Source of the DNA: Infirmifilum lucidum
GTDB taxonomy: Archaea; Thermoproteota; Thermoprotei; Thermofilales; Thermofilaceae
Direction of reading: 5' to 3'
DNA length: 64,000 nucleotides
NCBI RefSeq assembly: GCF_014876775.1
Contig: NZ_CP062310.1
Coordinates: 62,001-126,000, forward strand
The translations under genes and the position numbers were made by a program. This document shows, piece by piece, positions 8,401 to 34,880 of this stretch (positions within the stretch are counted from its first letter, which is position 1; each line of letters begins with the position of its first letter). The notes under the pieces are model-generated. The model was not told the origin of the DNA. It was given only the letters and a program-made list of their open reading frames with translations, and ran no database searches.

Positions 8401-8536
8401 TCGTATCGAGCTATAATATGAACAACACATATATTTACTTTGTGTAGAAAAACGAGGGAAATCATGTATACCCTTAAATTAGAGGATGAAAAGGAAGTAA
8501 TTCGCCTTCCTTAAGGTCTCGACTCCTAAAGATCCC

Positions 8537-11862: not shown

Positions 11863-11990
11863 GCTACTCTAACCTCCGGGGCCTTTTATAGCTTTCTGCT
11901 GGAGGTGCTCGGCCCCCAGTGCCCGGGACTGCCCTGCGGCAACGTTTATAGGCCTGCCCCGCGAGTACTCCCCCGTGCCTTGGGGCTCGC
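11859..11990. repeat. Divergent promoter cassette, left copy of inverted repeat
   Basis: About 130 bp matching 22277-22409 in inverted orientation with roughly 90% identity by eye. It carries two TATA boxes: one for the leftward gene (GTG 11862) and one (GTTTATA, 11944-11950) for the ankyrin gene starting at GTG 11975. Identity covers the region between the promoters and the first codons on both sides. Confidence 0.85.
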
Positions 11991-16182: not shown

Positions 16183-16464
16183 ATGTCTCTAGACACAGTT
16201 ATGGACAGAATTAAGGAATATGTGGAGGCCAGTGAGCTTCTCAAAAAATATGTTGATTCTCATATAGGAAGGTGCCCATTATGCGGTGGTCGGATAATAT
16301 GTGACGATAGATGGTGTGATGGCCATGTCCCCTATATTTACGTTGACGACGAGGTTATTAAGATAGGTTTTTACTGCCGCGGGGAAGATGAGCATGTCAT
16401 ACTCTTTGAGGAGAAGAGGGGGCGTGGAGGGGGTGAGGAGATGATTACCAGGAGCCACCACTAG
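16183..16464 (+). CDS. Small zinc-binding protein, stand-alone homologue of the ANK1 tail
   Basis: A 93-aa protein. Residues 29-93 (CPLCGG, a further Cys, DGHVPYIYVD, FYCRG, EEMITRSHH) align with the C-terminal domain of ANK1 (CPVCQG, HGHLPYIEV, YHCPK, EEAVTRRHV). The CxxC plus later Cys and His suggest one bound zinc. The N-terminal 28 residues form a helix. A TATA box lies about 30 nt before the ATG. It precedes the kinase gene by 56 nt but that gene has its own TATA. Its small size suggests a partner or regulator that competes with or binds the ankyrin protein. Confidence 0.75.
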   Translation: MSLDTVMDRIKEYVEASELLKKYVDSHIGRCPLCGGRIICDDRWCDGHVPYIYVDDEVIKIGFYCRGEDEHVILFEEKRGRGGGEEMITRSHH

Positions 16465-16520
16465 GCCTCGGGCCCAGCACTGTACCGGGGGAAAGGCTTT
16501 AATCCCGGGAGCACGCCTAG

Positions 16521-17654
16521 ATGCTTGGGATGCTCGCCGAAGGCTACAGGATACGCGGGGAGCACGGAGAGTATACTGTTCTCAGGCACTTTAAGACGGG
16601 GGGCTTCGGCGAGCTCTACCTCCTCTCCGGCGATCTTATAGGGAAGATCCCGCGGCTGGACGTCGTAATTCAGGTAGGCTTTGAGAAGGTGAGGGGGAGG
16701 TTCGAGACCGAGAAGGGCGTCTTGAAAACGGTGAAGGGGGAGCGGCACGTCGTCAGGTTTGTTGATTTCGGGTATGTCAGAGTACAGGGGTACGAGCTCC
16801 CGGTAATTATAATGGAGTTCGTCAAGGGGCCTACGCTACGGGACTACGTTGAGAAGAATGGGCCGCTGGAGGGGCGTAGTGCCCTCCTCTTCGCGAGGGC
16901 CCTGCTCGAGGCTGTTAGGAGCGTGAACGAGAAGGGCTACGTCTTGCGCGACCTTAAGCCCAGCAATATTATACTCAGGGGTGGTGACCCGTCAGACCCC
17001 GTAGTCGTAGACTTTGGCTGCGCACTATACCACGAAGTAACGCAGCTCCCGGAGAACTACCCTGACTGGAGGATATCCAGTGGTAGCTACACGCACCCCG
17101 ACCTATCCAGTAAGGGGGGCGTGGAGTTCTACTACGACGTGTACTCCTACGGTGCCACGCTCTACTACGCCCTCACGGGCGAGCATCCGAATAACCCAGA
17201 ATTCAGGAAGTGTGGCGTCTTCGCAGAGGTCGTTAAGAAGTGCATGCTCGGGGGACTAGGGCACACGAGCCAGATAGTGCTCCCGGGGGGGAAGGTGAGG
17301 ATTAGAGTGGAAGGAAGTGAATACACCTTCGACGTTTTTAAGTGCGGGGGGAAGATACTCATCGGGAGGGATCGCAGTTCACTTAGAGTGGTGGCCGTGT
17401 GCGGGGACGAGAGGGTCACCCTGGCAGATGACGTGGAGCAGTACATCTCCAGGCTCCCCGAAGGGCACCTCCTGGTAGACGTGGCCCGGATGAAGGTGGT
17501 CAGGCTGGGGAAGAACAAGCCGGCGCTATACAGGGGTGGCAGGTGGGTTGTAGTCCGAGGCGAGGAGGCGATAGGCCTTAGGGAGAGGGTGGCGCTCTCC
17601 TACGGCGAAGTGTCGGGGACGACGTACCTAGAGATGGAGCTGGCGGTGGAGTAG
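16521..17654 (+). CDS. Ser/Thr protein kinase with C-terminal FHA-like domain
   Basis: A 377-aa protein. The kinase domain spans about 15-230: Gly-rich loop KTGGFGELY (25-33), Lys42, catalytic LRDLKPSN (142-149; Arg-Asp kept, His replaced by Leu) and intact DFG (164-166). The C-terminal 110 residues form a beta-rich domain starting with ILIGRDRSS, as in FHA phosphothreonine-binding domains, though the usual SxxH is weak. A TATA box at 16497-16503 precedes the ATG by about 24 nt. The HerA-like ATPase gene starts at the next base after this stop, so phosphorylation may control that ATPase. Confidence 0.88.
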   Translation: MLGMLAEGYRIRGEHGEYTVLRHFKTGGFGELYLLSGDLIGKIPRLDVVIQVGFEKVRGRFETEKGVLKTVKGERHVVRFVDFGYVRVQGYELPVIIMEFVKGPTLRDYVEKNGPLEGRSALLFARALLEAVRSVNEKGYVLRDLKPSNIILRGGDPSDPVVVDFGCALYHEVTQLPENYPDWRISSGSYTHPDLSSKGGVEFYYDVYSYGATLYYALTGEHPNNPEFRKCGVFAEVVKKCMLGGLGHTSQIVLPGGKVRIRVEGSEYTFDVFKCGGKILIGRDRSSLRVVAVCGDERVTLADDVEQYISRLPEGHLLVDVARMKVVRLGKNKPALYRGGRWVVVRGEEAIGLRERVALSYGEVSGTTYLEMELAVE

Positions 17655-19559
17655 ATGCCTTCGTCCTTCAGGATCGGCGAGTGGGAGGGCAGGGCTGTCG
17701 AGCTGGCAGAGGAGGAGCTCCTCAAGCACGTGGTCATACTCGGGATGACGGGGTCGGGGAAGACGGGCGTCGGGGTAGCGTTAATGGAGGAGGTGCTCAT
17801 GGACGGGAGGAATGTCGTAGCCCTAGACGTCAAGGGGGACTTGTCTAACATTGCCAGGTGGGCTGAACACTGGACGCAGGGCCAGACCGCGGTATTCACG
17901 CCGGGGGCTGAGCCTAGCCCTGTAAACATCCTCGGGGCCTTGTCGAGGCCCGCCCAGTCAGTGGAGGAGTGCGCCTCAAACCTCGCCTTCTCCCTCCTCA
18001 GCTTGGTCCGCAGGCCCGGGAGAGCTGTCGAGCACACGCTCCTCTCCCACATAATACTGGAGCAGTGGTCGCGCCGCGGTTTTGTGGACTTGCACGAGCT
18101 CGTAGAGCTCGTAGTGTCTCCCCCCTTTACAAGCATAGGCCCGATGGGCCTAGAGGACTTTGCCCCAGAGGGCCTCAGGAAGAGCCTCGCCTCCGAGCTG
18201 AACGCGGTTATCTCCTCCCCCTCTTTCGGGAAGTGGCTCAGGGGGGTGCCCCTAGACATGGACGGGATATCGAGGTTTAAGGCCGCAGTGTTCTACCTGG
18301 CACACCTCACTCTAGACGAGAAGGTCTTCTTCACGTCCCTTCTCGCACAGGCAGTCTACAGGTGGATGACTGGCACTGGCGGGTCTGGCAGGCTCAGACT
18401 ACTCTTCTACCTGGACGAGGCGTACGGCTTCATACCCCCTGTCAGGAGGACACCCTCCAAGGAGCCCCTACTCCTCCTGGTCAAGCAGGGGAGGGCCTTC
18501 GGCACCTCCGTAGTCCTGGCGACGCAGAACGCCAGGGACATAGACTACAAGGCCCTGTCCAATATCGGCACGTGGATTATCGGCAGGCTCCAGTCCGAGC
18601 GCGACAGGAGGGCTGTCGCGGAGGGCGTGGGCCTCGATAAGCCAGGCCTGCTCAGAGAGCTCAAGTTCAGGGAGTTCCTCCTCGTGAGAGAGGGTAGAGT
18701 GGAGTTCATGAGGAGTAGAGACACGTATACGAGGTTGGGCCCACCACTGACTCTAGGCGAGGTAGGCACCCTGGCCAGAGCACTGCCCCCGGGAAGGCCA
18801 CTCCCGCAGGGCCACAGCTTTGGGAGCGTGTACATCCCCCTGGGTGGCTACGGCTTCAAGCCAGCAGTGTACATCTCCGCCAGAGTACACGCCGGCCCCT
18901 GCACCGCGAGGGTGGAGTCCTTCTTCGAGGCGGGCAGGCTGGACTTCGAGTCTAAGGCCGCCTACGGCGTCCCGCTCCAGAGCGTACGCCACTTGATCCA
19001 GGCCGCGGAGCGGGAGCCCGTCCCCGAGGCCTACGAGGCGTGGCTCAGGGACGTACAGGCGATGTTCGAGAAGTACTGGGCTAGCAGGGCGTTCCTCGTT
19101 TACCGGGGCTTCTGCTCCCAGCCCGGTGAAAAACCAGAAGAGTTCGAGCAGAGAGTCCTCGACGCAGTAGCCGTGGAGCTATACAGAGACGTAGAGAAGA
19201 AGTACTCTAGGAGGGTGAAGGCCCTAGAAGGCTCAATACGCAGGCTGGAGGAGAGGATAGCCCGGGAAGAGGAGAGGGAGAGGACGCGCAGGCTAGAGGC
19301 GCTCGGCAGGCTAGCGAGCTCGCTCCTCTCGGGTAGGGGGGCGAGAGCCCTAGCACACCTCGCGCCACTGCTACGCGGTGGCCGGGCGGGAGAGCTCGCC
19401 AGGAGGAAGTCAGAGCTACTTGCACAACTAGCAGAGCTCCGCGCAGAGGTAGAGAGGGAGAAGGCTGAGGCCCGGAGGCGCGTGCGCGAGCAAATAGTAC
19501 CTGTCAAGCCCCAGGGGGTCAGCGTGGAGGAAGTGTGCCTCGTCTGGCTAGGCCTCTAG
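17655..19559 (+). CDS. HerA/FtsK-type ATPase with long coiled coil
   Basis: A 634-aa protein. Residues 1-340 form a HerA-like P-loop domain with Walker A GMTGSGKT (about 30-37), Walker B LLFYLDEAYGF (about 250-260), a Gln motif VVLATQNARD and an Arg-rich IIGRLQSERDRR. Residues 345-450 are a separate domain, and 500-620 form an Arg/Glu coiled coil. HerA proteins pump DNA with NurA nuclease, but no NurA gene is near. Related HerA/DUF853-type ATPases occur in conflict and stress systems. It is translationally coupled to the kinase-FHA gene, suggesting a regulated DNA- or protein-remodelling machine. Confidence 0.85.
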   Translation: MPSSFRIGEWEGRAVELAEEELLKHVVILGMTGSGKTGVGVALMEEVLMDGRNVVALDVKGDLSNIARWAEHWTQGQTAVFTPGAEPSPVNILGALSRPAQSVEECASNLAFSLLSLVRRPGRAVEHTLLSHIILEQWSRRGFVDLHELVELVVSPPFTSIGPMGLEDFAPEGLRKSLASELNAVISSPSFGKWLRGVPLDMDGISRFKAAVFYLAHLTLDEKVFFTSLLAQAVYRWMTGTGGSGRLRLLFYLDEAYGFIPPVRRTPSKEPLLLLVKQGRAFGTSVVLATQNARDIDYKALSNIGTWIIGRLQSERDRRAVAEGVGLDKPGLLRELKFREFLLVREGRVEFMRSRDTYTRLGPPLTLGEVGTLARALPPGRPLPQGHSFGSVYIPLGGYGFKPAVYISARVHAGPCTARVESFFEAGRLDFESKAAYGVPLQSVRHLIQAAEREPVPEAYEAWLRDVQAMFEKYWASRAFLVYRGFCSQPGEKPEEFEQRVLDAVAVELYRDVEKKYSRRVKALEGSIRRLEERIAREEERERTRRLEALGRLASSLLSGRGARALAHLAPLLRGGRAGELARRKSELLAQLAELRAEVEREKAEARRRVREQIVPVKPQGVSVEEVCLVWLGL

Positions 19560-19727
19560 CCGCGGAGGCAGGAGTTACTCCGGTGCTCCCCAGCCCCCGG
19601 CTTCCACTTTTCCCGGCTACAGGGGCAACAGCGGCTCCTACCCGCTCCTGTATTGGGACTGTTAGCGAGTTGGGGGTTCCGGGGTAATGTTTATCTCGTG
19701 GCATTGGAGTACATTAGAGGGCTTGCA

Positions 19728-20255
19728 GTGAAGAAACCCTGGATAAAGACGGTAAGGTATGGAGACATTACATTCCCCCCAAGGCACTTAAAGGTGGGCA
19801 CAAAGATATCAGGTAAAGTTAAAATTCTCCTTTGTAGTGTGAGCTACTGTAGATATGACTTTATAATAGCTTCATACGTCGGACCTGGGCTTGGCAGTGA
19901 AATATTTGCATATTCACTAGTAAAGATCGAGGGGGCCTGGGAGCTCCGCAAGCTAGAGGATTTAAAGGATTTTAGAGGTATTATTCTCGAACCCCAGACG
20001 GACGTTTGGAAAGTCTTGGAACTTGCCAAGGAGAGGGGTGTCGGCGTAGTACTCCCCCCAGTCTACCGGATCACTCTCGAAGGGAGGGGCGATGAGCGCA
20101 CAATCGACTTTGAGGTAGGAGAGGAAGGGGATTACGTCTGCGGGTTAAGGTGCCGCGGAGGTTGTTATGAATCCTCCGATGAGATTTATGTTGAGGTTTA
20201 CATTGAGGGTGCTGCGGAGGAGGTCGGGGAGACCCCGACCCGGCTGCATCGGTAG
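19728..20255 (+). CDS. Beta-sandwich protein, soluble paralogue of 14172
   Basis: The frame is open from 19653. I place the start at GTG 19728, after a TATA-like GTTTAT at 19689-19694; GTG 19698 and TTG 19704 are alternatives. The 175-aa product holds TFPPRHLKVGTKISGKV, two Cys-containing strands (LLCSVSYC) and a C-terminal DYVCGLRCRGGCY cluster, then YVEVYIE. Six Cys residues could form disulfides or bind metal. Its membrane-inserted relative is at 14172. It sits between the HerA-like gene and the phosphatase gene. Function unknown. Confidence 0.6.
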   Translation: MKKPWIKTVRYGDITFPPRHLKVGTKISGKVKILLCSVSYCRYDFIIASYVGPGLGSEIFAYSLVKIEGAWELRKLEDLKDFRGIILEPQTDVWKVLELAKERGVGVVLPPVYRITLEGRGDERTIDFEVGEEGDYVCGLRCRGGCYESSDEIYVEVYIEGAAEEVGETPTRLHR

Positions 20256-20299
20256 CCTCCAGCGATAGGTTTTTATTGTCTGTCCGCGGGGTGTGCGTG

Positions 20300-21199
20300 A
20301 TGGGCGTTTTCTCTCCTCCTAGCTTGGGTGAGCTGAGGGGGCTACTCGAGGAGGCGGAGTCTGCCTTCGAGAGGGAGAGGAGCCTCGTAAAGTTGGGGGC
20401 TAGGAGGGCTGTCTTTGTCGGCGATATTCACGGCGACTACCTTTCGGTGGAGTACGTCCTCAAGAGGTTCCTGGGCGAGTACTCGCTCGTGTTCCTCGGG
20501 GACTACGTGGACAGGGGGCCTGAGCAGCTCAGGTGTATCGTCACGCTCCTCAGGTTGAAGGCCGAGGAGCCGGGTAGGGTCGTCATGCTTAGGGGGAACC
20601 ACGAGACAGCGAGGGTTAACTCTTCGTATGGCTTTTTCGCGGAGCTCGTAAAGTGGTATGGGGGGAGGGCGCAGGAGGCCTTCACGGACTTCAACAGAGT
20701 TTTCTCGAAGATGCCCTACGCGTGCCTCATCGGCAGAGTTCTGGCCGTGCACGGGGGGATTGCGAGAGAGTTGAGAACGCTCAGGGACATCGAGGCAATC
20801 CCCAAGGGGGACTTGGAGGCCGAGGAGGGGTTAGCGGCTGAGCTACTGTGGAACGACCCGAGCGAGGACGTAGAGGGTTTTGCGCCGAACGCCGTGAGGG
20901 GCGGGGGCTACGTGTTCGGGAGGAAGCCCCTCGAAGAGTTCATGAGGAGGAACAGGATCAGCCTGGTTGTGAGGTCTCACTACCCCTACCCCGAGGGCTT
21001 CAGGTACATGTTCCCGACAGGCGGCCAGGAAAAGCCCGGCGGCAGGCTAGCCTCGCTGATCCGCAGGGCCTTCAGGGCAGGGCCTAGGTACCCGGGTCTA
21101 CTCTTATCGATTTTCACGTGCAGGTACTACAGGCAGGTTAAAACACCCTCTGTCGCCGTGTTCGAGAAGGGTAGAATCAGCCAGCACGTAGTAGGCTGA
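20300..21199 (+). CDS. PPP-family serine/threonine protein phosphatase
   Basis: A 299-aa protein with all PPP metallophosphatase signatures: GDIHGDY, GDYVDRG, LRGNHE, a later HGG and RSHYPYPEG. These supply the two-metal centre and the catalytic His of PP1/PP2A-like enzymes. I choose ATG 20300 (GTG 20297 also possible), about 27 nt after TATA 20269-20277; the frame is open from 20276. Residues about 105-145 contain the usual cap helices. It is the only phosphatase among three kinases, so it is the likely eraser of their marks. Confidence 0.92.
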   Translation: MGVFSPPSLGELRGLLEEAESAFERERSLVKLGARRAVFVGDIHGDYLSVEYVLKRFLGEYSLVFLGDYVDRGPEQLRCIVTLLRLKAEEPGRVVMLRGNHETARVNSSYGFFAELVKWYGGRAQEAFTDFNRVFSKMPYACLIGRVLAVHGGIARELRTLRDIEAIPKGDLEAEEGLAAELLWNDPSEDVEGFAPNAVRGGGYVFGRKPLEEFMRRNRISLVVRSHYPYPEGFRYMFPTGGQEKPGGRLASLIRRAFRAGPRYPGLLLSIFTCRYYRQVKTPSVAVFEKGRISQHVVG

Positions 21200-21662
21200 C
21201 CCCCCTCTTCATTTGGGCTTTCACTCCTCAAGCCCACCACATTCCTCGCGCCCCTTTCTCACTACATCATAACATGCAATAGAGGGTGCACTGAGAGATG
21301 TTAACGAGGTAGTACCTAAAATAGGTGTACGGGGTGTGGTGTACTCCGGGGTATAGGCGTGAACAAGCCAGCGTAATAAGGAGAATGAGTCCGTGCAATG
21401 ATCCCAGAAAGAGGGATATGGCTGCCACAAGACACTCCGCCCTCAGTAGCCTCAGCGCAGGCAGAAATGGAATAACGGGCAACCATTTTTAGTCCCTTGC
21501 CACAGCCCAGGATCGCCCCTCCATGAACCCCTTGGGGTTTAAAGTGATAAAATCCAGGTGCTGTTGGTGTGGAGCCCTCCTTAGCCCTGGGCTCAGGAGT
21601 GCAGTGAGCGGGGCGGGAGGAGTTCTTACAGTATGGCTGGGGCACTCTAGCCCCGGCTCCTG
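21200..21662. other. Intergenic region, possibly a small decayed ORF
   Basis: About 460 bp. A leftward frame of up to 71 codons ending at 21267 encodes a hydrophobic stretch (VAAISLFLGSLHGLILLITLA), but it has no properly spaced TATA box. I cannot support any gene here with confidence. Confidence 0.4.
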
Positions 21663-22292
21663 CTAGGGCTTGTGGGACGTGGCTTCTCTCAGCAGCTCCC
21701 TACCCCTCTCTATCGCCCTCTCCACCCACAAGACCGCGCTCTCTAAGTCTACTACCCCGGCTGGAGGGGTTCCAGCAACCTCCCCCCTCCCCACTCTGGC
21801 CCGCGAGCCCCCTCTGACAGACTCCAGGAGCTCGACAACCTCCCTGTGCCCCTTCTCCCTCGCAAGGTCTAGGGGCGTCCTGCCCTCATTGTCCCTGGCG
21901 TTCACGTGTGCGCCTTTGTCGAGTAGTAGCTTCACGACTCCCAGGTGCCCATTGAAAGCAGCAAGGTGTAGCGGCGTCCAGCCAAACTTGTTCCTGGCGT
22001 TCACGTCTGCGCCCCTATCCAACAGCAGCCTCGCGACATCTAAGTGCCCATCGCGAGCAGCATAGTGTAGCGGTGTCCAGCCAAGCTCGTCCCTGGCGTC
22101 TACTTCTGCACCTCTCTCCACTAGTAGCCTTACGACCTCCAAGTGCCCGGAATCAGCAGCATGGTGTAGCGGCGTCCAGCCATCATAGTCCCTAGCGTCC
22201 ACGTGTGCGCCTCTGTCGAGCAGTTCTTTTACCCTCCTGTAGTCGCCCTCCTTCGCTGCCTTCACTAATTCCATGTCTACCGAGCCCTGCAC
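21663..22292 (-). CDS. Ankyrin-repeat protein (ANK2)
   Basis: The frame is open to 22349, but GTG 22292 fits the shared promoter: its TATA (minus strand, about 22316-22322) is placed exactly as in ANK1. The 209-aa product has an N-cap (MELVKAAKEGDYRRVKELL), three full 33-residue repeats (WTPLHHAA, WTPLHYAA, WTPLHLAA) and a C-cap (RTPLDLAREKGHREVVELLE). A tail of about 55 residues without the zinc domain follows. The gene is divergent from the kinase gene at 22406 and shares the promoter cassette with it, which suggests a kinase-ankyrin partnership. Confidence 0.9.
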   Translation of the reverse strand: MQGSVDMELVKAAKEGDYRRVKELLDRGAHVDARDYDGWTPLHHAADSGHLEVVRLLVERGAEVDARDELGWTPLHYAARDGHLDVARLLLDRGADVNARNKFGWTPLHLAAFNGHLGVVKLLLDKGAHVNARDNEGRTPLDLAREKGHREVVELLESVRGGSRARVGRGEVAGTPPAGVVDLESAVLWVERAIERGRELLREATSHKP

Positions 22293-22409
22293 GGGGGAGT
22301 ACTCGCGGGGCAGGCATATAAACGTTGCCGCTCGAGCAGTCCCGGGCACTGAGGGCCGGGCACCTCCAGCAGAAAGCTATAAAAGGCCCCAGAGGCTAGA
22401 GTAGTGTGT
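22277..22409. repeat. Divergent promoter cassette, right copy of inverted repeat
   Basis: Inverted copy of 11859-11990. The AGCTATAAAAGGCCCC box (about 22374-22390) drives the kinase gene at GTG 22406, and the opposite box drives ANK2. The DNA between the boxes, including GTGCCCGGGACTGC-like and TTTCTGCTGGAGGTGC segments, is nearly unchanged between the copies. Confidence 0.85.
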
Positions 22410-23422
22410 CTTATGGGCGCCTTAAAGGGGGGTTTGAGGTTCTAGAGAAAGTGGGTGAGGGCGGTTTTGCTGAAGTCTATAAGGTTAGGAGGGTTTCCGA
22501 TGGCAGAGTCTTCGCGTTGAAGGTTCCGAAGAGTGGCGTAGACCGCGGGTACTTGGGGAGGGTGCTCGGGGTTCACAGGAAGCTATTGAATGTGGAGCAC
22601 CCGAATATAGTGAGGGTGTACGAGGTGGGGGCGGGGGAGGAGCCCTACATACTCCTAGAGTACATCGACCCCAGCTCCAACCTCGGGGGGGTCGTCGGGA
22701 GGAGGAAGGTGGAGCTCGAGGAGGCGGCTAGGATAGTCTACGACGTGATGAAGGCGTTAGTCTTTGCTAGGCAGGTACTTGACATAAAGGCGCACATGGA
22801 TCTCTGCCCCTCAAACATCTTCGTAGTGGAGGGCACGGCTAAAGTCTCGGACTTTGACAGCGCCTACTGGGCAGATATCAGCTACTCTTCCTTCAGGACG
22901 CACTTCGACTACGCCCCGCCTGATGCTAGCGAGGAAGCCCTGCAAGACGAGAGGTTTCTCGAGACGTATGACGCCTTTGCGCTTGGAGTAATATTCCTCG
23001 AGCTGGTAGAGGGTAGGAGAGGGCTCAGGGCACGCATCCTCGCGTCTCGCGAGGAGCTCTTGGAGAAGCTTCCCATCCCTTTAAGGGCTGCTCTTAGGCG
23101 GATGGTAGATCCAGTCTACACTGGGAGGATTAGTGTTGCCGAGGCTATCCCCTTCTTCGAAGACTACCTCGAGGCAACTAACTACAAGGTTCAGGTAGTA
23201 AGGCTAGTCGTGGAGTACCTCGACCTCCTCGAGAACCTGAGGTGGAAAATGCGGAAGGAAGGCGCCAAGTTGTCTGCTAGAGAGCTCGAGGAGTTAAAGG
23301 CTCTTGAAGGAACCGTGGAAAGAGCAGTTCAAGCCCTGAAGAGCGAGGGCGGGGGTGTAGACGCGCTCATCGCGGACGCGAGGCTGAAAATGGACGCGCT
23401 TAGAGGCAAGCTACATAAATAG
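22406..23422 (+). CDS. Ser/Thr protein kinase with DFD motif and coiled-coil tail
   Basis: A 338-aa protein. Gly-rich loop GEGGFAEVY (18-25), Lys39 in FALKV, catalytic loop HMDLCPSN (130-137; His and Asp kept, Arg replaced by Met) and metal-binding DFD (149-151) instead of DFG. The catalytic residues are present, so it could be active, but loss of the Arg and Gly points to unusual regulation. Residues about 255-338 are coiled coil. It starts at GTG 22406, about 26 nt after the TATA of the repeated cassette, and is followed 96 nt later by the FHA protein gene with its own TATA. Confidence 0.88.
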   Translation: MSYGRLKGGFEVLEKVGEGGFAEVYKVRRVSDGRVFALKVPKSGVDRGYLGRVLGVHRKLLNVEHPNIVRVYEVGAGEEPYILLEYIDPSSNLGGVVGRRKVELEEAARIVYDVMKALVFARQVLDIKAHMDLCPSNIFVVEGTAKVSDFDSAYWADISYSSFRTHFDYAPPDASEEALQDERFLETYDAFALGVIFLELVEGRRGLRARILASREELLEKLPIPLRAALRRMVDPVYTGRISVAEAIPFFEDYLEATNYKVQVVRLVVEYLDLLENLRWKMRKEGAKLSARELEELKALEGTVERAVQALKSEGGGVDALIADARLKMDALRGKLHK

Positions 23423-23518
23423 CGTCGGGACGGCACTACCTGGGTGTGGCCTAACCCCGCGAGCATGCGACCCTAGGCTTGCGGAAGGTTTTTAACATTG
23501 GTGCCGAATAGACAGAAT

Positions 23519-24517: not shown

Positions 24518-24582
24518 TGGCCAGGGTTCTGTTACTACCCCGTCCTCCGGGGTTGTAGCCGTGCCCCCTGAAGCTGTAGTAC

Positions 24583-25866
24583 TTATGGACAGTTCTCCTT
24601 CACCATTTTAATTCTTCTCAACACATCATCGCTACAGGCGATTTTCCGCGCAATACTGTCGGCCTCTGCGTACCTCCCCCTCGCCACGAGTAAGGCTAGC
24701 CCGTCAAACAAGCTGAATGTCCCGCCGTCAACTTGAACCTTCTCGTCCTGGTAGATCTTTGCCGTCGAGAAGAGCCTGTCGTCGAATAGCACTTCTTCGC
24801 CGCCGGGCAGTGCGACGTAGAGGTCTGGGACTCCAACACCTCTCCTCTCGAGGATTTTACGGGCAAACCGGTACTTTGGGTAGACGTTCTGGGCTACTTC
24901 GAAGAGGAGGGCGCCCACGAGGTCGGCTAGTCTCAGCTTGTCGGTGTAGAGGTTTCTCGTGAGCCTGATCTTTATCCCGTCACGCTTCGGGTCTACACTC
25001 TCAATAGGCATCTTGAAAACCCAGTGGGTTAGGTATCCGGCACCCAACAGCGCTATGTCCTCGACAATGTTCTTGAGTGTTTTCTCGTCCCCCCTACTCC
25101 TCCCCGCGCAGTCGATCGAGTCTAGGAGGTTTAGTACCCCCACAACCTTGAGCACGTCGACTTCGTCTGGGAAGTCTACAGCCTCGATTCTTACCCCGCC
25201 CTCTAACTCCTGCGGGTAACACTTGGGGTTCTCCAAATCGTGAGACTCAACGACCAGCGCGAGAACCCGCCCCAATTCAGGCCACTCTTTTAATATGAAG
25301 TCCCGAGAATAGGCGGCGGAGACGTATGGGTGTAGCTTCCTCATGACCGCCCTCAGCGTCTCCTTCGCGTAAGATGGGATATCGTCCCAAGCCTTGTCTT
25401 TGAGGTTATGGGGGAATTCTAGTACGCCTCTCGGGAAGAACACGTCAGTTATGCTCCTGCTCCCTTCCCGCAACCCGTCCAGTAGCTTCCTCTCAGCGTC
25501 ACCCCTGCATATGCTACTGACAAAGTAGTCTTCTATCTTCCTGAGCGGGTCTTCTGCACACCATTTCCCAGCCCATGTCTCCACCTCCTCTTTGGATAAT
25601 TGGAGGTCTGCCCAGTTCCGCGGGTTATAAGCCATGCCTATGTCGTGCAGGTACACAGCCATCCTAATTACTTCGTGCTCTGCACCGTTAATGTTCCCAT
25701 ACCACGTCTCATTGTACAAGGACTTAAAGTACATCTCCAGGTTTTTGCTATGCCTGTGGTCGTGGTACGTGTAGTGGAAGAAGAAGAGGTTGGCATACGG
25801 CAGTATACTTGAGGCGGTTTCAACAACGTAGTCTGCGACGCGCCTCAGCTTGAAAGTTCCTGGCAC
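24583..25866 (-). CDS. HD-domain metal-dependent phosphohydrolase-like protein
   Basis: The frame is open to 25911, but GTG 25866 lies 27 nt after a minus-strand TATA box (25889-25897), so I use it; 427 aa. The N-terminal third carries YHDHRHSKNLEMY and, about 40 residues on, VYLHDIGM, the H...HD signature of HD phosphohydrolases. A later VVESHDLENPK may supply the remaining metal ligands. HD enzymes cleave nucleotide phosphates or cyclic nucleotides; the substrate is not predictable here. It faces the Ig-FHA gene across an 88-bp divergent promoter. Confidence 0.75.
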   Translation of the reverse strand: MPGTFKLRRVADYVVETASSILPYANLFFFHYTYHDHRHSKNLEMYFKSLYNETWYGNINGAEHEVIRMAVYLHDIGMAYNPRNWADLQLSKEEVETWAGKWCAEDPLRKIEDYFVSSICRGDAERKLLDGLREGSRSITDVFFPRGVLEFPHNLKDKAWDDIPSYAKETLRAVMRKLHPYVSAAYSRDFILKEWPELGRVLALVVESHDLENPKCYPQELEGGVRIEAVDFPDEVDVLKVVGVLNLLDSIDCAGRSRGDEKTLKNIVEDIALLGAGYLTHWVFKMPIESVDPKRDGIKIRLTRNLYTDKLRLADLVGALLFEVAQNVYPKYRFARKILERRGVGVPDLYVALPGGEEVLFDDRLFSTAKIYQDEKVQVDGGTFSLFDGLALLVARGRYAEADSIARKIACSDDVLRRIKMVKENCP

Positions 25867-25954
25867 GCTATAGCACCTCCTACTTACTCTTAAAAACTTT
25901 CTGATCCTCAATTAAAGAAAAGTATATAGCCTCTGCACAAGCTAATAAAAGCGT

Positions 25955-27100
25955 ATGGGGGATTCTGTACGGATAGTTAAGGATTTTGCCCGAGAGGCCA
26001 GTGCTGTATTAGGGGACATACTCGTTCTCCTTGGGCGCGAAGAGATTGACGGGACAGAGCTCCTCAATCTTTTCTCCAGGCTTCGGGTTCACGTCGAGAA
26101 TATGCATAGCCTTCGGGGAAGTTTCCCGCCGGGGCACCTCCTGGCGATGAACATAGAGAACATATTCGAGAGCGTTGAGTCGTGCGTTGAAAGGCTAAAG
26201 GACTTCCAAGGCAAACGTGTTCCAGTGGGCATTGCAGAGGAGATAAAAATCCATGTTAACGATGTCCGCGAGAGGCTAAAGGTTATTGAGAAGGTAATCG
26301 AGGAAGAGTTTATCAGGGGGGTGAGGCCTACACCGGAACTGCCAAAGCTATACCTACACCTAGATAGCCCTAAGGTCGTAAAGGTAAACACCTGCGCCAG
26401 TGTTGTCGTGCAAGTGACGGATGGCAGTTCTCCCGTTGCCGGCGCTGAGGTAACGCTCTCCTGGGCGGGCGGCACTGTGGATCCGGCTAGTGGTCTAACA
26501 GACTCTAAGGGCTACTTCCGGGCTAAGCTCTGCCCTCTCCAGCCGGGAGAGTATGCTCTAACCGTGAGAGTAACTAAGGAAAACTTCATTGAAGCCCGGG
26601 AAACTGCAGTAGTGAGAGTTGAGTCCGAGGAAACACGCATCGTCGTGAGGGCAGGTAGCTTTGAGAGAGCAGTACTAGGCCCAGTCGTCCTGGGCCGTGA
26701 TAAGGGTGGAGAAGGCAATCTTGTGCTCTACGAGCCGCTACTCCCCATTTCACAGTTCCTGGAGAAAGCTCGATTGGACTACTACTCTGCAGTTGAGCAC
26801 TTGAGAGTCCTAGCAGAGACCGGTACCCCCGTACCTAGGAAGTTTAGCATGGCACACTTTGTTATAGTCCCGTCTGGGAACTTTTTTAGCGTATTTTGTC
26901 TGAATAAAAACTCTACGCTCGTTAGGGTTGATGGTTCAGAGAGACTCATTCCAGGCGGTAGGACGCTTGAGGAGATAAAAGTTCGGACTAACCTTGTCAT
27001 ACTGGAGGTGGGTAAGGAGGCGCTGAAAGTCCCCATTAGGGTTGAGGTTGTTTCTGGAGTCCCTAAGAGAGGAGTACCAACAATCACGGAGAATGAGTAG
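25955..27100 (+). CDS. Helical-Ig-like-FHA protein
   Basis: A 381-aa protein starting at ATG 25955, about 28 nt after TATA 25922-25928. Residues 1-125 are helical. Residues 133-225 look like a bacterial Ig-like/carboxypeptidase-regulatory beta-sandwich (GAEVTLSWAGG, TDSKGYFRAKL). Residues 245-370 look like an FHA domain (VVLGRDKGG, SMAHFVI, NKNSTLVRVDG). Like the neighbouring FHA protein, it probably recognises phosphorylated partners. The last 17 bases overlap the convergent coiled-coil gene. Confidence 0.7.
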   Translation: MGDSVRIVKDFAREASAVLGDILVLLGREEIDGTELLNLFSRLRVHVENMHSLRGSFPPGHLLAMNIENIFESVESCVERLKDFQGKRVPVGIAEEIKIHVNDVRERLKVIEKVIEEEFIRGVRPTPELPKLYLHLDSPKVVKVNTCASVVVQVTDGSSPVAGAEVTLSWAGGTVDPASGLTDSKGYFRAKLCPLQPGEYALTVRVTKENFIEARETAVVRVESEETRIVVRAGSFERAVLGPVVLGRDKGGEGNLVLYEPLLPISQFLEKARLDYYSAVEHLRVLAETGTPVPRKFSMAHFVIVPSGNFFSVFCLNKNSTLVRVDGSERLIPGGRTLEEIKVRTNLVILEVGKEALKVPIRVEVVSGVPKRGVPTITENE

Positions 27101-28715
27101 ATTTTTCCTCGCTTAGCGTCCTCAAGGTCTCAGACAGCTCTCTCACTTGCTTGGCGAGCTCCTCCCTCTCCTTCTCGCAGGCGTCCATCCTCTCGCGGGC
27201 CTTCTCGTACCACTCAATCCTCTCTCTGAGGAGGGCCTCCCTCTTTTCCAGATCCTCCTCCTTCACCTCAAGCTCCCTCTCGCGTTGTTGTAGTGCTAGA
27301 AGTCTCTCGTTGAGCTTCGCGAGGAGGGACTCGTAGTTTCTTCTAACTACTTCTGCTTCCCGTAGGGATTTCTCGGCCTCCTCTCTTAGCTTCGAGGCTT
27401 CAGCGCGCATTTGTTCTACTCGCCTCTTTTCCTCCTCTACTTTTATTGCTTCGTGCTTAAGGTCGTCGAGTTCCCGCGAGAGCTTGCTCCTCTCCTTCTC
27501 CAGTCTTGACTGTTCAGCCTCTAAGGTTGACTTTAGCTTTCTTAAAGCCTCCTCTCTCTTTTTCAAGTCCTCCTCCCACGAGGCTAGCCTCTTCTCCTTC
27601 TCTGCGAGCTGGGCCGCGAGCACCGAGAGCTTTGACGAGTTCTCCTTGAAGGCTTTCTCCATCTCGGCTAGCTCGGCCCTGCGCTTTTCAAGAACTTCTA
27701 ACTCCTTCTCCCTCCTCAACACCTCTTTCTCGCGGGCACTGAGCTCGACCTGTAACTTTGAGAGACTGCTCTCCCACTCCTTCAGTCTCCTCTCCTGCTC
27801 TTCAATGCTCTTCCAGCGAGCCTCCAGCTCTCCTAGCTCATTTTTTACTCTTTCCTCCAGCTTTGCCAAGCTCTCCTCACGCGCCACCCAGGCCTTTTCC
27901 ATCTTGCCGGCATGTTCCTCTAGCCGGCGCACATACTCTTCGAGCTCATTCCTCCTCTTCTCAAGCCTCTCAACTTCTCCTCTGAGGCCCTTAACTCTCT
28001 CCTCTAGCCCCCTGAGAGCAGCCTCCCTGGCATCGAGTTCTTTTTGTCTCCCGCTGAGGTGCTGCTCCAGTACTTTCAGACCCTCTCTTTCGCGTTGTAG
28101 CATTGAGAGCATGTCTGTTAATGTCTTGATAGTACTCTGGACGGTGTTTGAGAGCGTTTTAACTGTATCTGTGTACTCGGAGATTTTCGAGTAGATATCT
28201 TCCATCCTGTTCTCGACTGAAGCCATAAACTCCTCTAGACTCTTCCTCTGACTCCCTAGGATGCTGAGTTGCTCGGCTATGGAGTCCCTGAGCTTCTGGG
28301 ATTCACCCAGCAGTGTATCGACCTGCATCTCCCTCTTCTCCACGTCCTGTATTCTAGACTCGAGGCTCGCGAGCTCCCTCTCAAGGCCCTTTAGATGTTC
28401 TTCGCGCTCACTGAGGACTCTTAGGAGGTTTTCGGCTCTACCCCTAAACTCATCGTGTAGTTTCCTCAGGGAGTTGAGGGCATCGGCAAACATGCTCTCA
28501 AATTTTTTCCTGAGATCCTCGTAGTTGCCCTGCAGGCTTCTGTAATCCTCGGCGAATTTTGAAGATAAATGCTCGTATTTTTCCGAGATGTATGCGGAGA
28601 AGAGGAGTGTTGCCTCTTCCTTACTTAGCTTTTTGCCCTCTTCAATTTTCCTGATGGCTTTGGATCTCTCCTCCGATGATGCGTTTAGGATTTTGTTAAG
28701 CTCGGGTAGACCCAT
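27084..28715 (-). CDS. Long coiled-coil protein
   Basis: I use ATG 28715 (MGLPELNKIL; the frame is open to 28724), giving 543 aa. After a 50-residue N-terminal head, nearly the whole protein is an uninterrupted Glu/Lys/Arg/Leu coiled coil in the manner of SMC arms, without any ATPase ends. It overlaps the end of the upstream coiled-coil gene by about 20 nt, so the two are coupled. It could be a structural filament or tether. Strong strand bias creates large shadow frames opposite it. Confidence 0.75.
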   Translation of the reverse strand: MGLPELNKILNASSEERSKAIRKIEEGKKLSKEEATLLFSAYISEKYEHLSSKFAEDYRSLQGNYEDLRKKFESMFADALNSLRKLHDEFRGRAENLLRVLSEREEHLKGLERELASLESRIQDVEKREMQVDTLLGESQKLRDSIAEQLSILGSQRKSLEEFMASVENRMEDIYSKISEYTDTVKTLSNTVQSTIKTLTDMLSMLQREREGLKVLEQHLSGRQKELDAREAALRGLEERVKGLRGEVERLEKRRNELEEYVRRLEEHAGKMEKAWVAREESLAKLEERVKNELGELEARWKSIEEQERRLKEWESSLSKLQVELSAREKEVLRREKELEVLEKRRAELAEMEKAFKENSSKLSVLAAQLAEKEKRLASWEEDLKKREEALRKLKSTLEAEQSRLEKERSKLSRELDDLKHEAIKVEEEKRRVEQMRAEASKLREEAEKSLREAEVVRRNYESLLAKLNERLLALQQRERELEVKEEDLEKREALLRERIEWYEKARERMDACEKEREELAKQVRELSETLRTLSEEKSTHSP

Positions 28716-29523
28716 CCAAACCACCCTGAACCAGACTGTTATCTATCCTGAAGAGAACTGTCTGCAGGTCTTGGATGCTCCCTGCCAACTCAGTCGCTAG
28801 CGCCTGTAGGCGTGAGGTGAGATCGATCAGAGAGCCCTGGATGGAGTCTACGTTTTCGGAGAGAAGTGCTAGAGCCATGTACTGTTCCCGGAGCTTACCC
28901 GCGACCTCCCCTCTAACCCCATCTAGCGCCTCGATGTGCTTCTTCCCCGCGTTTTCAATTGTTACTCTTATGTCTTTGGCCTGATCCTCGAGTTTCCCGC
29001 CTAGAAGGTCTACTCTGTTCTCAATACCTTCTAGGAGTTCCCCAGTCTTGCCGAGATTTTGCAGAACTTCTATGTGGTTGTCTCTCAGAATCTTCTTCAC
29101 TTCCTCTCTGCTGCTCTTCACTTCCCTCCCTATTTCGCTAAGTTTCTGGTCAACTGTAGAGAGACTTTTCTTGATACCTGTAACCTCTTGGGCAAAGACT
29201 TCAGCGAGTCCAGAGACTTCTTGGGCTAAATCCCTCTTGACTTGCTCGAGCCGCTCAGGCACATCTTTCTGGATTTTCGACACAATGCCCGACAGAACCT
29301 CTATTCTCTCCTCCATTTTCTTTTGAAGAGAAGAGAGGCTGTTTAACTGGCCACTTATGCTTGATATCTGACGCCGGATCTCCTTAATTTCGCTACTTAC
29401 ACTTGATATGGCCCGGCTCAGAAATTCCAGTTCCCTGCCTATACTGTTTATTGTGCTTTCAATTCTACTAATTCTGTCTTCAATTCCACTAAACCTGTAC
29501 GAATAATCGGACACGTAGCTCAT
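28696..29523 (-). CDS. Coiled-coil protein, unknown
   Basis: Start at ATG 29523 (a TTG at 29526 is in frame). The 275-aa product is coiled coil from about residue 10 to 260, with heptads rich in Ile/Leu/Ser/Glu that resemble the signalling stalk of chemoreceptors, but no receptor hairpin tip is recognised. The TATA at 29549-29556 is 27-29 nt upstream. It is the first gene of a two-gene operon with the longer coiled-coil protein. Confidence 0.7.
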   Translation of the reverse strand: MSYVSDYSYRFSGIEDRISRIESTINSIGRELEFLSRAISSVSSEIKEIRRQISSISGQLNSLSSLQKKMEERIEVLSGIVSKIQKDVPERLEQVKRDLAQEVSGLAEVFAQEVTGIKKSLSTVDQKLSEIGREVKSSREEVKKILRDNHIEVLQNLGKTGELLEGIENRVDLLGGKLEDQAKDIRVTIENAGKKHIEALDGVRGEVAGKLREQYMALALLSENVDSIQGSLIDLTSRLQALATELAGSIQDLQTVLFRIDNSLVQGGLDGSTRA

Positions 29524-29576
29524 CAAATTATACCTGAGGAGGAGTAATGAATATATTTTTTCCCCGGTTTATTTTC
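29524..29576. promoter_or_regulatory. Bidirectional TATA region
   Basis: A near-palindromic AATATATT (29549-29556) is correctly spaced for both the leftward ATG 29523 and the rightward GTG 29577. One TATA core may serve both directions. A purine-rich GAGGAGGAG before ATG 29547 offers an alternative start for the rightward gene. Confidence 0.5.
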
Positions 29577-31130
29577 GTGTATTCGTCACGGGATGCCTTC
29601 CTGAAGAAACTCGCAGAAAGGTACGTAGAGAGCATCGAGGAAGTTGCGCGAAGCATAAGGTGCTATCGTATTGAGCTGAGCCAGAAGTTTATCGAGGAGG
29701 TTAAAGCCGGGCTGGTCTCAGAGGACAGCGGGAGGCGCGGCAGGGCAGAGGAGCTTGTGAGCGAGCTCGTTGGCATACTCGAGAGCATAAAGAACGAGTG
29801 TGTTGAGGGAGTCTTCTACGGTAGTAGGAGAATCTCCAGCCTGGGGGACGCGAGACAGCTCCTAGAGGAGGTGCGGAGCGACGTAGAGTCACCCTCAGTG
29901 GAGATAAAGTTCCCCTACACTGTTCCTTTGAGTGTTGAGGAGGCTTCAGTTGTAATAAGGCTTCTGAACAGGAAGCCGTGGCCTGTTAGGCTCGACTCCA
30001 TGCTAATTATAGCTGGGGGGAAGGTTATCGAGAAGATAGACCTGGGGGTAGAGCTCCAAGGCTACTCGGGCCACGACCTCAGGAGGAGGTTGAGGTACGG
30101 CTCCTATAGAGTGAGAGTTTACCACGAGAGCCTAGGTAGATTTCTCGAGAGAGAAGACGTCTTGAGGGTCGAGCCTGGCGCCCGGAAGCCCTGGGTGGAT
30201 CTACTCGAGGAGCCTATTCTGCTGCCGCCGCACTTTAACGAGATACGCGGCGAGCCCCTCAGGCCTTTCATCGTTGAGGGTATGAAAGGGAGATACGAGT
30301 GCACCGAGTTGATATATCCTACCCGCGAAACACTGCGTGACGAGTTAATGCGCAAGAGGATAAAGTTCGCAGTCTTTAGGTGCGGCCCTGTAGTCGTCAA
30401 GAGCCCCCTAGACCTGGCCGTCACGCACATAAATTGGATTACAGAAGGAGAGGTAAGCGGCGAGGATAGAGAGCGCTTCGAAAGAGAGGTCGCTGGGTTC
30501 CAGCGGTTAGCGGAGGGTCTAGGCCACCCTCACGTTGTGAAGTTTGTAGACTATTCTCCGAAGCACCTAGCTACAGTCTGGGAGTTCTGCCCCTTCGGCT
30601 CGCTTAGGAACTATCTAAATAGAGTTGGCCCCCTGGCGCCCCGCGAAGTCGTGAAAGTAGGTATCCAGGTGGCTGACGCGCTAATATACCTCTACAAAGT
30701 AACAGGTGGAGCACAGCACCTCGACATAAAGCCCGAGAATATTCTCGTCGACGGGAGTGGCCTAGTCAAGCTCTCAGACTTCGAGTCCATGGTTAAGCTA
30801 GAGATTTACGGGAGGATGAGGTTTACGCGGAGGTATGCCGCGCCCGAAGTCTTAAGAGGAGGGGTTGCTCAGACAACAGACGTCTACAGCCTCGCCTTAA
30901 CGCTCGCAGAACTCTCCACAGGGTACACGCCCAGAGAAGAGTCCGGACTAGACCTCGCAAGGAGGATCAGGGCAGAAGAGAGAATCCCAGAGCCCCTCAA
31001 GGCTATTCTCCTGGAGTGCCTGAGGGACGACCCCTCAGAGAGGCCGAGCATGGAGAACCTGGCGGAAAGAATGTCTAGGCTATGGAGCGAGAAGAACTGG
31101 AACGAGGGGGGAACGGCCAGGCACAGCTGA
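29577..31130 (+). CDS. Ser/Thr protein kinase with large N-terminal domain and DFE motif
   Basis: The start is GTG 29577 (leaderless spacing) or ATG 29547 (12 residues longer and unusually hydrophobic). The N-terminal 250 residues comprise a helical part and a beta domain. The kinase domain fills the C-terminal half: FAVFRCGPVVVK, QHLDIKPENILV (catalytic Asp and Asn kept), SDFESM where DFG is expected, then APE and DVYSLALTLAEL. The Gly-rich loop is not obvious. DFE instead of DFG could alter Mg binding, so activity needs testing. It is the third kinase in 15 kb and lies 67 nt before the large ankyrin gene. Confidence 0.85.
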   Translation: MYSSRDAFLKKLAERYVESIEEVARSIRCYRIELSQKFIEEVKAGLVSEDSGRRGRAEELVSELVGILESIKNECVEGVFYGSRRISSLGDARQLLEEVRSDVESPSVEIKFPYTVPLSVEEASVVIRLLNRKPWPVRLDSMLIIAGGKVIEKIDLGVELQGYSGHDLRRRLRYGSYRVRVYHESLGRFLEREDVLRVEPGARKPWVDLLEEPILLPPHFNEIRGEPLRPFIVEGMKGRYECTELIYPTRETLRDELMRKRIKFAVFRCGPVVVKSPLDLAVTHINWITEGEVSGEDRERFEREVAGFQRLAEGLGHPHVVKFVDYSPKHLATVWEFCPFGSLRNYLNRVGPLAPREVVKVGIQVADALIYLYKVTGGAQHLDIKPENILVDGSGLVKLSDFESMVKLEIYGRMRFTRRYAAPEVLRGGVAQTTDVYSLALTLAELSTGYTPREESGLDLARRIRAEERIPEPLKAILLECLRDDPSERPSMENLAERMSRLWSEKNWNEGGTARHS

Positions 31131-31149
31131 GCCACGGCTCCACCTCCCA

Positions 31150-31196
31150 CGTAGCCCTGCGGCAACGCTTATAGTTTTGTCCTGCAAGTATCCCCC
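31150..31196 (+). promoter_or_regulatory. Diverged third copy of the ankyrin promoter half-cassette
   Basis: AGCCCTGCGGCAACGCTTAT and the following CCTGCAAGTATCCCCCGTG match the ankyrin side of the repeated cassette at roughly three of four positions. TATA CTTATAG at 31168-31174 precedes GTG 31197 by 26 nt. The divergent half is missing here. Confidence 0.65.
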
Positions 31197-32462
31197 GTGT
31201 CTGAGGATTTGATCGAGGCAGCACGGAGGGGCGACTACGGGAGGGTAAAAGAACTACTCGACAGGGGCGCAGACGTGAACGCCAGTGACTATGCTGGCTG
31301 GACGCCGCTACACCATGCTGCCCGGATGGGGCACCTGGATGTCGCGAGGCTACTAGTGGAGAGAGGCGCAAATGTAAACGCCAGAGACGTAATTGGCGGT
31401 ACGCCGCTACACTATGCTGCTCTCAATGGGCGCTTGGAGGTCGCGGAGCTGTTGCTGGAGAGGGGCGCAGACGTGGACGCCAGGGACAAGCATGGCTATA
31501 CGCCGCTACACTATGCTGCTCTCAAGGGGCACCTGGATGTCGCGAGGCTGCTGTTGAAGGGGGGCGCAGACGCGAACGCCAGGGACAAGTTTGGCAGGAC
31601 GCCGCTAGACCTTGCGGGGGAGAAGGGGCACAAAGAAGTCGTCGAGCTCCTTGAGTCTGTAGTAGAGTTATTCAGGGCCGCGAAGAGGGGCGACCTGGGA
31701 AGAGTCAAGGAATTGCTCGATAGGGGTGTGGGCATAAAGACCAGGGACGAGAGTGGCTGGACACCGCTACACTATGCTGCCCGGAATGGGCACTTGGATG
31801 TTGTGAGATTACTAGTTGAGAGTGGCGCAGAGGTAGACGCCAGGGACAACTCTGGCAACACACCCCTGCACGTCGCTGCTAGGTATGAGCACTTAGACGT
31901 CGTAAAGCTACTAGCCGAAAATGGTGCAGATGTAAACGCGAGGAACAAGGACAGTGAGACGCCACTACATGTTGCTACCAGCAATGGGTACTTAGACGTC
32001 GTGAAGTTGCTGGTAGATAGTGGTGCAGACGTAAACGTCGGGGACAAGGATGGCGAGACGCCTCTGCACGTCGCTGCTAGAGAGGGGCTTTCAGATATCG
32101 TGAAGTTGCTGGTAGATAGTGGTGCGTACTTAAACGCCAGGGATAACTCTGGCAATACACCCCTACACAAGGCTGCTGAGAAAGGGCACCTAGACGTCGT
32201 GAAGTTGCTGGTAGATAGTGGTGCAAAGGTAAACGCTAAAAATGACAGTGACCAGACACCCCTACACCTCGCCGCCTGGAATGGGCACTTAGAAGTCGTG
32301 GAGCTACTCGTCGAGAGCGGTGCAAGCACGAAAGCAAGGGACAATAATGGCAGGACGCCCCTAGACCTTGCGAGGGAGAAGGGGCACAAAGAAGTCGTCG
32401 AGCTCCTGGAGTCTGTGAAGGAGAGGGGGGATGGGGAGAGGGTTACCAGGCGCCACTACTAG
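31197..32462 (+). CDS. Large ankyrin-repeat protein with two capped arrays (ANK3)
   Basis: A 421-aa protein made of about 14 ankyrin units. The first array (5 units) runs from an N-cap (LIEAARRGDYGRVKELL) to a C-cap (RTPLDLAGEKGHKEVVELLE). A second N-cap (LFRAAKRGDLGRVKELL) and about 9 units then end in another C-cap. This is a head-to-tail fusion of two ankyrin proteins. The last residues are GERVTRRHY, a tail also seen in ANK1 and the 16183 protein. It is followed by the ATPase pseudogene. Confidence 0.9.
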   Translation: MSEDLIEAARRGDYGRVKELLDRGADVNASDYAGWTPLHHAARMGHLDVARLLVERGANVNARDVIGGTPLHYAALNGRLEVAELLLERGADVDARDKHGYTPLHYAALKGHLDVARLLLKGGADANARDKFGRTPLDLAGEKGHKEVVELLESVVELFRAAKRGDLGRVKELLDRGVGIKTRDESGWTPLHYAARNGHLDVVRLLVESGAEVDARDNSGNTPLHVAARYEHLDVVKLLAENGADVNARNKDSETPLHVATSNGYLDVVKLLVDSGADVNVGDKDGETPLHVAAREGLSDIVKLLVDSGAYLNARDNSGNTPLHKAAEKGHLDVVKLLVDSGAKVNAKNDSDQTPLHLAAWNGHLEVVELLVESGASTKARDNNGRTPLDLAREKGHKEVVELLESVKERGDGERVTRRHY

Positions 32463-34763: not shown

Positions 34764-34880
34764 GGTGCTGGCAATGACTTGTAACATATAAGCCTTAAGT
34801 CAACACAGCGGCCGTGCGTCTTGGTGTGTATAGCTTCTTTACATGATTAATTTATTTATATACCACTTTTAGTAGTAAAT

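Follow-up and report, generated by a model that had tools for sequence, protein, structure and literature searches.

An accessory island of kinases, a phosphatase, candidate FHA readers and scaffold proteins in the archaeon Infirmifilum lucidum, with a possible role in membrane-associated phospho-signalling

We analysed a 64,000-nt stretch of DNA (the window; G000:C1:62001-126000) from the single-contig, 1.63-Mb genome of the archaeon Infirmifilum lucidum (G000), which carries an island of genes for protein kinases, a phosphatase, FHA-like proteins and putative scaffolds. Coordinates are positions within the window, with the strand in brackets, except where G000 or G000:C1 marks contig positions. 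The island spans ~34 kb (G000:C1 ~60.2-94.5 kb), from ~1.8 kb before the start of the window up to position 32462. The gene for a kinase termed KIN0 spans the first base of the window, with a fourth ankyrin gene immediately to its left. A preliminary description of this DNA had set the limits of the system at 16183-32462, which is too narrow, as KIN0, the fourth ankyrin gene and the entire beginning of the window also belong to it; the gene calls of that description are essentially correct. Our Pfam scans took in the main island proteins, gene starts are mechanical calls, and the phylum survey used a sample of 398 Thermoproteota genomes.

The left half of the island holds most of the core genes. 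KIN0 (window 1-854 (-), the N-terminal part, with its start codon at 854; full gene G000:60803-62854) encodes 683 amino acids, in which a weak PQQ-like beta-propeller and an Ig-like domain are combined with a Ser/Thr kinase domain (Pkinase, 7e-33). Its homologue in a second species of the genus (G001) has the same place in its operon. KIN0 forms a same-strand group with DUF_861, cc_2016 and cc_2948. DUF_861 (861-2012 (-)) is predicted to consist of a beta-solenoid, a helical part and a C-terminal zinc ribbon (Zn_Ribbon_1, 2e-6), and has relatives in G001 (42% identical), Thermocladium and Vulcanisaeta. Only the beta-solenoid character is taken from its AlphaFold2 (AF2) model, which shows repeated strands at a predicted local distance difference test (pLDDT) score of 75.7; a Foldseek comparison of this model with structures gave nothing significant (best E 0.2). 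The coiled-coil protein cc_2016 (2016-2951 (-)) is 29% identical to its G001 counterpart and is represented in Thermocladium by two fragments, while cc_2948 (2948-4876 (-); 33% identical in G001, with a Thermocladium homologue) joins a coiled coil to two hydrophobic segments and two CxxC motifs.

To the right of this group lies the gene for a CARDB/BatD Ig-like protein with a C-terminal SPTGW domain (5479-7332 (+); BatD, 4e-10), which serves below as the marker of related loci. It is preceded by g4916 (4916-5437 (+)), a small partner whose homologue in another genome, G020, adjoins the homologue of 5479-7332. There follow a small membrane protein, g7381 (7381-7788 (+); homologues in G001 and G020), and a small helical protein, g7828 (7828-8430 (-); homologues in G001, Vulcanisaeta and G020). 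A membrane-anchored, subtilisin-like protease with Asp, His and Ser motifs (8694-10244 (-); Peptidase_S8, 4e-53) is 45% identical to one in the G001 island, and a protein resembling an I9 propeptide or inhibitor (10245-10613 (-); weak Inhibitor_I9) has a G001 homologue that likewise adjoins the protease. An ankyrin protein (11975-12988 (+)) ends in a tail of zinc-binding type that, by sequence comparison, resembles a small protein of zinc-ribbon type at 16183-16464 (+), whose G020 relative adjoins a kinase. Between them is TM_13236 (13236-13598 (-)), a glycine-rich multi-pass membrane protein with homologues in G001, Thermocladium and G020.

Most of the signalling enzymes lie in the right half. 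KIN1 (16521-17654 (+)) consists of a Ser/Thr kinase (Pkinase, 3e-17) and a C-terminal FHA-like domain; one base after its end begins the gene for a HerA/DUF853-like ATPase with a coiled-coil tail (17655-19559 (+)), which has Walker A and B motifs, matches HerA_C (5e-7) and DUF87 (1e-6), and is 37% identical to its counterpart in the G001 island. A protein for which no family match was found (19653-20255 (+)) separates the ATPase from a PPP-family phosphatase (20276-21199 (+); Metallophos, 1e-28), the second copy in this genome, in which the motif set GDIHG, GDYVDRG, GNHE and HGG is complete. Beyond an ankyrin protein (21663-22349 (-)) are KIN2 (22406-23422 (+); Pkinase, 2e-23) and a helical protein with a C-terminal FHA-like domain (23498-24517 (+)). 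An HD-CE domain protein (24583-25911 (-); PF24391, 9e-10; 25% identical in the G001 island) is followed by a helical protein with a Big_1-like Ig domain (2e-6, below cut-off) and an FHA-like domain (25955-27100 (+); 24% identical counterpart in the G001 island). Two overlapping coiled-coil genes come next, a long one (27084-28724 (-)) that is 27% identical in G001, with order and strand kept, and a shorter one (28696-29526 (-)), matched by a coiled-coil gene at the corresponding G001 position. KIN3 (29547-31130 (+); Pkinase, 5e-30), preceded by a Shine-Dalgarno sequence, has an N-terminal extension before its kinase domain, and the island closes with an ankyrin protein with 12 repeat matches (31197-32462 (+); Ank, 5e-126).

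These matches uphold most of the parts list given in the preliminary description, namely three Hanks kinases, a PPP phosphatase, a HerA-like ATPase, an HD-domain protein, two coiled-coil proteins, and two ankyrin proteins with a third upstream. The catalytic motifs of the kinases are largely in place: KIN2 and KIN3 have HxD..N and DFx and KIN1 has LRD, while in KIN2 a Cys replaces the Lys of the catalytic loop. A further proposal, that neighbouring genes share promoters, appears not to hold. The right half contains three divergent gene pairs, spaced 20-57 bp as called, with TATA-like boxes before 22406 (~30 bp upstream) and 25955. The true starts of the genes at 21663 (near 22274) and 24583 are likely further in, so that the pairs appear to have separate, divergent promoters.

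FHA domains had also been proposed for KIN1, 23498-24517 and 25955-27100, and here the outcome is mixed. None of the three has an FHA match in Pfam, NCBIfam or a six-frame search with PF00498. However, when a custom hidden Markov model (HMM) of 29 archaeal FHA domains was run without filters against 119 proteins, the leaders outside the training locus were KIN1 (E 0.004), 23498 (0.063), 25955 (0.4) and an FHA-like protein of G001 (0.5). Because the first three, which had been nominated beforehand, thus rank above all other window proteins, they likely carry divergent FHA domains. KIN1 can additionally be aligned from end to end (residues 4-366) with a G020 protein that fuses a kinase to an FHA domain and bears a PF00498 match. 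The model of the 23498 FHA-like domain is of poor quality (pLDDT 59.5) and has no informative PDB match. Searches with the sequences of the two FHA-like proteins alone gave no convincing relatives in 60 genomes; their relatives emerged solely through position and profile.

The six-frame search of G000 did yield five PF00498 matches at another locus. This second, more canonical cluster (G000:C1 1360743-1376188; L079, L052) also holds a kinase-FHA fusion, a PP2C-like protein and membrane proteins, and similar groupings of FHA and kinase genes are present in G028, G047, G057, G043 and G019.

Kinase and ankyrin genes are strongly concentrated in the island. Four of the five Hanks kinases of G000 fall within 32 kb (simulated p 1.6e-4), as do four of its five ankyrin loci within the island, the ankyrin paralogues having been amplified inside this genome. 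The same holds for G001, where all three Hanks kinases (p 7e-4) and every ankyrin locus lie in a matching, rearranged island at the end of a contig. The G001 island contains KIN0, DUF_861, cc_2016, cc_2948, TM_13236, g7828, g7381, the I9-like protein, the subtilisin, the HD protein, the Ig/SPTGW protein (28% identical), the HerA-like ATPase and ankyrins, together with two FHA-like proteins, two kinases besides KIN0, and both coiled-coil genes in their relative order and strand. Four further species (G003-G006, 95-99% complete) have no Hanks kinase above the Rio/Bud32-like background, which marks the island as accessory. On a single 6-kb contig, G002 has a KIN0-like kinase and, two genes away, an ankyrin gene.

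Outside the family, core genes are clustered in Thermocladium modestius JCM 10088 and Vulcanisaeta sp. KMA_Bin30, which belong to another family of the class and are represented by short contigs or frameshifted drafts. One of these contigs carries DUF_861, cc_2016, cc_2948, TM_13236, HD, Ig/SPTGW and FHA-like genes, and the other DUF_861, KIN0, g7828 and the subtilisin. A first search of genome contigs with profile A1 returned no matches. The preliminary description had suggested looking for co-occurrence of these families in archaeal genomes, with independent scattering in relatives as evidence against one system; the core proves to be linked in G001, Thermocladium and Vulcanisaeta, while relatives of the HerA-like ATPase stand alone in most other genomes, and we dropped the ATPase as a marker of the system because of its solitary relatives. 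All 42 high-quality genomes in a census of the PPP family have at least one copy, a second being present in G000 and G030 alone. The extra copy of G030 has a kinase and an FHA gene as neighbours (L051, G030:C2 ~57-62 kb), so that writer, eraser and reader are grouped there as well, independently of the island.

The SPTGW domain (profile A6) extends the comparison to the phylum. It is present in 10 of the 398 Thermoproteota genomes, and among its 11 loci kinases lie nearby in G000, G001, G119, L107, L109, L110, L111 and L112; in most loci they share a stretch of 15-20 kb with the SPTGW gene, often as fusions with propeller or TPR repeats. FHA-profile matches accompany the domain at L109 (4e-9), L113 (8e-7) and L110 (0.007). 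At four loci (L107, L110, L111 and L113) a Vps4-like ATPase is encoded 1.5-3 kb from the SPTGW gene. These ATPases are 43-51% identical to the first one; all match AAA and, with varying strength, Vps4_C, and a single member matches both MIT (6e-7) and Vps4_C (7e-10). The subfamily is well delimited in the phylum scan, with seven of the 398 genomes scoring above 440 bits and the next best proteins, of Cdc48 size, at ~250 bits. Five of these seven genomes also have SPTGW (hypergeometric p 6e-8). Compared with the PDB, the SPTGW profile returned no usable match. The kinase cluster of G119 is accompanied by two small helical proteins and an AAA ATPase (L088:11027-12298(-), L086:325-1589(-)); this ATPase has a Vps4-like look but was not counted as evidence, its MIT match being weak (0.005) and its neighbour having no Snf7 match.

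That the genes of the island form one system and not a chance pile-up is well supported, because the islands of G000 and G001 match and because a core gene is found repeatedly, across the phylum, in the company of kinases and FHA proteins. The single kinase, phosphatase, FHA and ankyrin system envisaged in the preliminary description is sustained to this extent, although the HerA-like ATPase and the PPP phosphatase are less closely tied to it. We assign a probability of roughly 0.5 to the reading that the island is one accessory phospho-signalling locus, encoding a membrane-associated complex whose most likely output is controlled membrane sorting or remodelling. Gene content, motifs, conserved clustering, patchiness, and the neighbourhoods of kinase, FHA and Vps4-like genes form its observed basis. 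As judged from the sequences, the island is best read as related to the archaeal loci that combine kinases and FHA proteins with the endosomal sorting complex required for transport (ESCRT). Membrane sorting or remodelling is the preferred output because SPTGW elsewhere adjoins kinases, FHA proteins and a Vps4-like ATPase, and by this analogy the island might act in the same way.

In the mechanism that we propose, KIN0, the beta-solenoid zinc-ribbon scaffold, the coiled-coil and membrane proteins, the SPTGW Ig-like protein, the membrane-anchored subtilisin, the HD-CE protein and the FHA-like readers would constitute the core, to which the additional kinases, the ankyrin scaffolds, the spare PPP phosphatase and the HerA-like ATPase would be attached. 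A cue sensed by propeller, Ig or ankyrin parts might activate the kinases, which could then phosphorylate threonines of the scaffold and coiled-coil proteins. FHA domains would read these marks and thereby assemble a membrane-bound complex, the phosphatase would erase the marks, and the ATPase and protease might execute the work or reset the system. It is tempting to go further and suppose that Thermoproteota have a second, kinase/FHA-controlled membrane-sorting machinery, comprising SPTGW proteins and their own Vps4-like subfamily, of which the island would be a Vps4-less derivative that gained ankyrins and the HerA-like ATPase. We consider this extended proposal doubtful.

Several observations weigh against the assignment of a sorting function to one coherent system. 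Neither G000 nor G001 has a member of the Vps4-like subfamily, the profile matching only Cdc48-type proteins there, and neither genome has a Snf7 match, a model that stays under its cut-off in control genomes too, Sulfolobus included. The link to sorting consequently stands on one shared domain together with the company of kinases and FHA proteins, and distant SPTGW proteins resemble 5479-7332 over only part of its length. The FHA assignments are individually marginal in their statistics and draw no support from the structure model. Moreover, ~15 relatives of the HerA-like ATPase in the family, order and class have no adjoining kinases and lie amid ordinary genes, and the G001 island contains no PPP gene, the sole PPP of that species being the housekeeping copy.

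The principal competing explanation is a large antiviral defence island, in which infection would activate the kinases, invaders would be detected by the ankyrins, and the response would fall to the protease, the HD-CE protein and the HerA-like ATPase. Its patchy presence in the genus and the amplified ankyrin paralogues would suit such a role, as would a DrmA/DpdJ-like helicase and a Cas4-like nuclease 15-20 kb away in the window. The kinases match the PADLOC profile mad6 (KIN3, 6e-39; KIN0, 3e-41) and PD-T4-6 kinases, but such kinase matches are generic, and DUF_861, cc_2948 and the SPTGW protein have no PADLOC match at all. Similarly, the ATPase matches mad8 and anti-phage HerA at 1e-13 to 1e-14, yet the ordinary surroundings of its relatives do not point to defence. 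With no methyltransferase or known effector among the scanned island proteins, no copies or relatives of the island found on plasmids, phages or viral contigs, and many membrane and protease parts that are atypical of known defence systems, we regard defence as unlikely, though it is the strongest of the rivals.

Less probable still is a regulatory switch resembling the Arn network, by which the kinases, FHA protein and PPP phosphatase would control transcription, motility or a DNA-damage response and the other genes would be targets. The enzyme set equals that of Sulfolobales (ArnC and ArnD kinases, the FHA protein ArnA and the phosphatase PP2A), but no vWA protein of the ArnB/ArnE type occurs among the scanned proteins, no DNA-binding domain was found, and the structural and membrane components far exceed the Arn set. 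A hot spot that had simply gathered accessory genes with no connection between them, so that kinases, ankyrins and ATPase are independent of one another, would explain why HerA and PPP genes occur independently elsewhere and why gene order differs between G000 and G001. However, it does not account for the many families common to the two islands, the linkage of core genes in other families, or the co-occurrence of kinase, FHA, SPTGW and Vps4-like genes far above chance; this explanation was already disfavoured and we consider it very improbable.

Other features of the window lie outside the island. The helicase and nuclease mentioned above belong to a group at 46983-53294 (-), which encodes in overlapping order a 1201-aa helicase (PADLOC SngC, DrmA, DpdJ), a 719-aa protein and the Cas4-like nuclease, and possibly represents a DISARM/Dpd-like defence operon. 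An ATPase gene at 32567-33600 is split into two frames (32567-32860 and 32881-33600) and is likely a broken copy; a full-length protein of similar appearance is encoded at 41834-43141. Small proteins with VDTG-like motifs flank the island (33799-34158, 34359-34787, 36562-36966 and L037:14033-14407). They resemble retropepsin-like aspartic proteases, and three of the four are homologous.

What is known of archaeal phospho-signalling comes mainly from the Arn network, which is small. With four kinases, a dedicated phosphatase, scaffolds and divergent FHA readers in ~34 kb, kept together in a second species and partly so in another family, the island would rank among the richest loci of this kind. 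Should the link to Vps4-like loci hold, it would also bear on whether sorting under the control of phosphorylation, which has been inferred for the ancestor of archaea, survived in this phylum.

The preliminary description had compared the island with the PpkA/PppA/Fha switch of the type VI secretion system (T6SS) and with Ter-type kinase-phosphatase triads, a parallel that survives as one of logic. The T6SS switch uses a phosphatase of the PPM/PP2C type. What the island has in common with it is solely the kinase-phosphatase-FHA logic; no T6SS structural genes were detected in Pfam and NCBIfam scans of the main island proteins, and with a phosphatase of the PPP type and no secretion-system genes we rejected this identification. 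The same scans gave no match to TerY/vWA or TerD-family proteins, and a Ter-type triad was rejected in the absence of these parts. The methylation-associated defence system (MADS) also brings a kinase and a HerA-like ATPase together; among PADLOC profiles, mad6 scores best with KIN0, KIN2 and KIN3. The MADS matches (6e-39 for mad6, 1e-13 for mad8) are nonetheless far under the NCBIfam MAD6 equivalog cut-off, and neither the MADS DNA methyltransferase nor the remaining mad genes are among the scanned island proteins. As for pairs of HerA with a nuclease or SIR2, no partner gene lies next to the ATPase, whose neighbours are a kinase and the 19653-20255 protein without a family match.

The Arn network (ArnA-E and PP2A) and the archaeal ESCRT loci that bear kinases and FHA proteins are closer in logic to the island than either T6SS or Ter. 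In Sulfolobales, dephosphorylation by PP2A alters the assembly of an FHA complex (PMC10470591). Like the Arn network, the island combines Hanks kinases with a PPP-type phosphatase, and it has candidate FHA readers, which the custom profile supports, while Pfam is negative and the structure model poor; unlike it, the island has no vWA partner, contains many more membrane and scaffold genes, and is clustered as an accessory island. Archaeal ESCRT loci that carry Ser/Thr kinases, phosphatases, and FHA, Ig-like and PQQ-like proteins have been described, and some have been read as devoted to phosphoprotein sorting (Makarova et al. 2024, PMC11188069); according to the same paper, the ESCRT of the superphylum considered here has been pared down to the Cdv set used in division. 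The SPTGW loci with kinases, FHA proteins and a Vps4-like ATPase are similar to these systems. A Vps4 of that kind is missing from the island, whereas four related SPTGW loci have a Vps4-like ATPase, and the island has no ESCRT-III match, subject to the behaviour of the Snf7 model noted above. It adds ankyrins, a HerA-like ATPase, a subtilisin, an HD-CE protein and a beta-solenoid protein to what those loci contain. It shares with them an Ig-like/propeller kinase (KIN0) in the company of FHA proteins (by the custom profile) and, with the loci of the 'Main' and 'Halo_FHA' clades in particular, Ig-like kinases, a phosphatase, FHA proteins, PQQ/WD40-like propellers, zinc ribbons and coiled coils.

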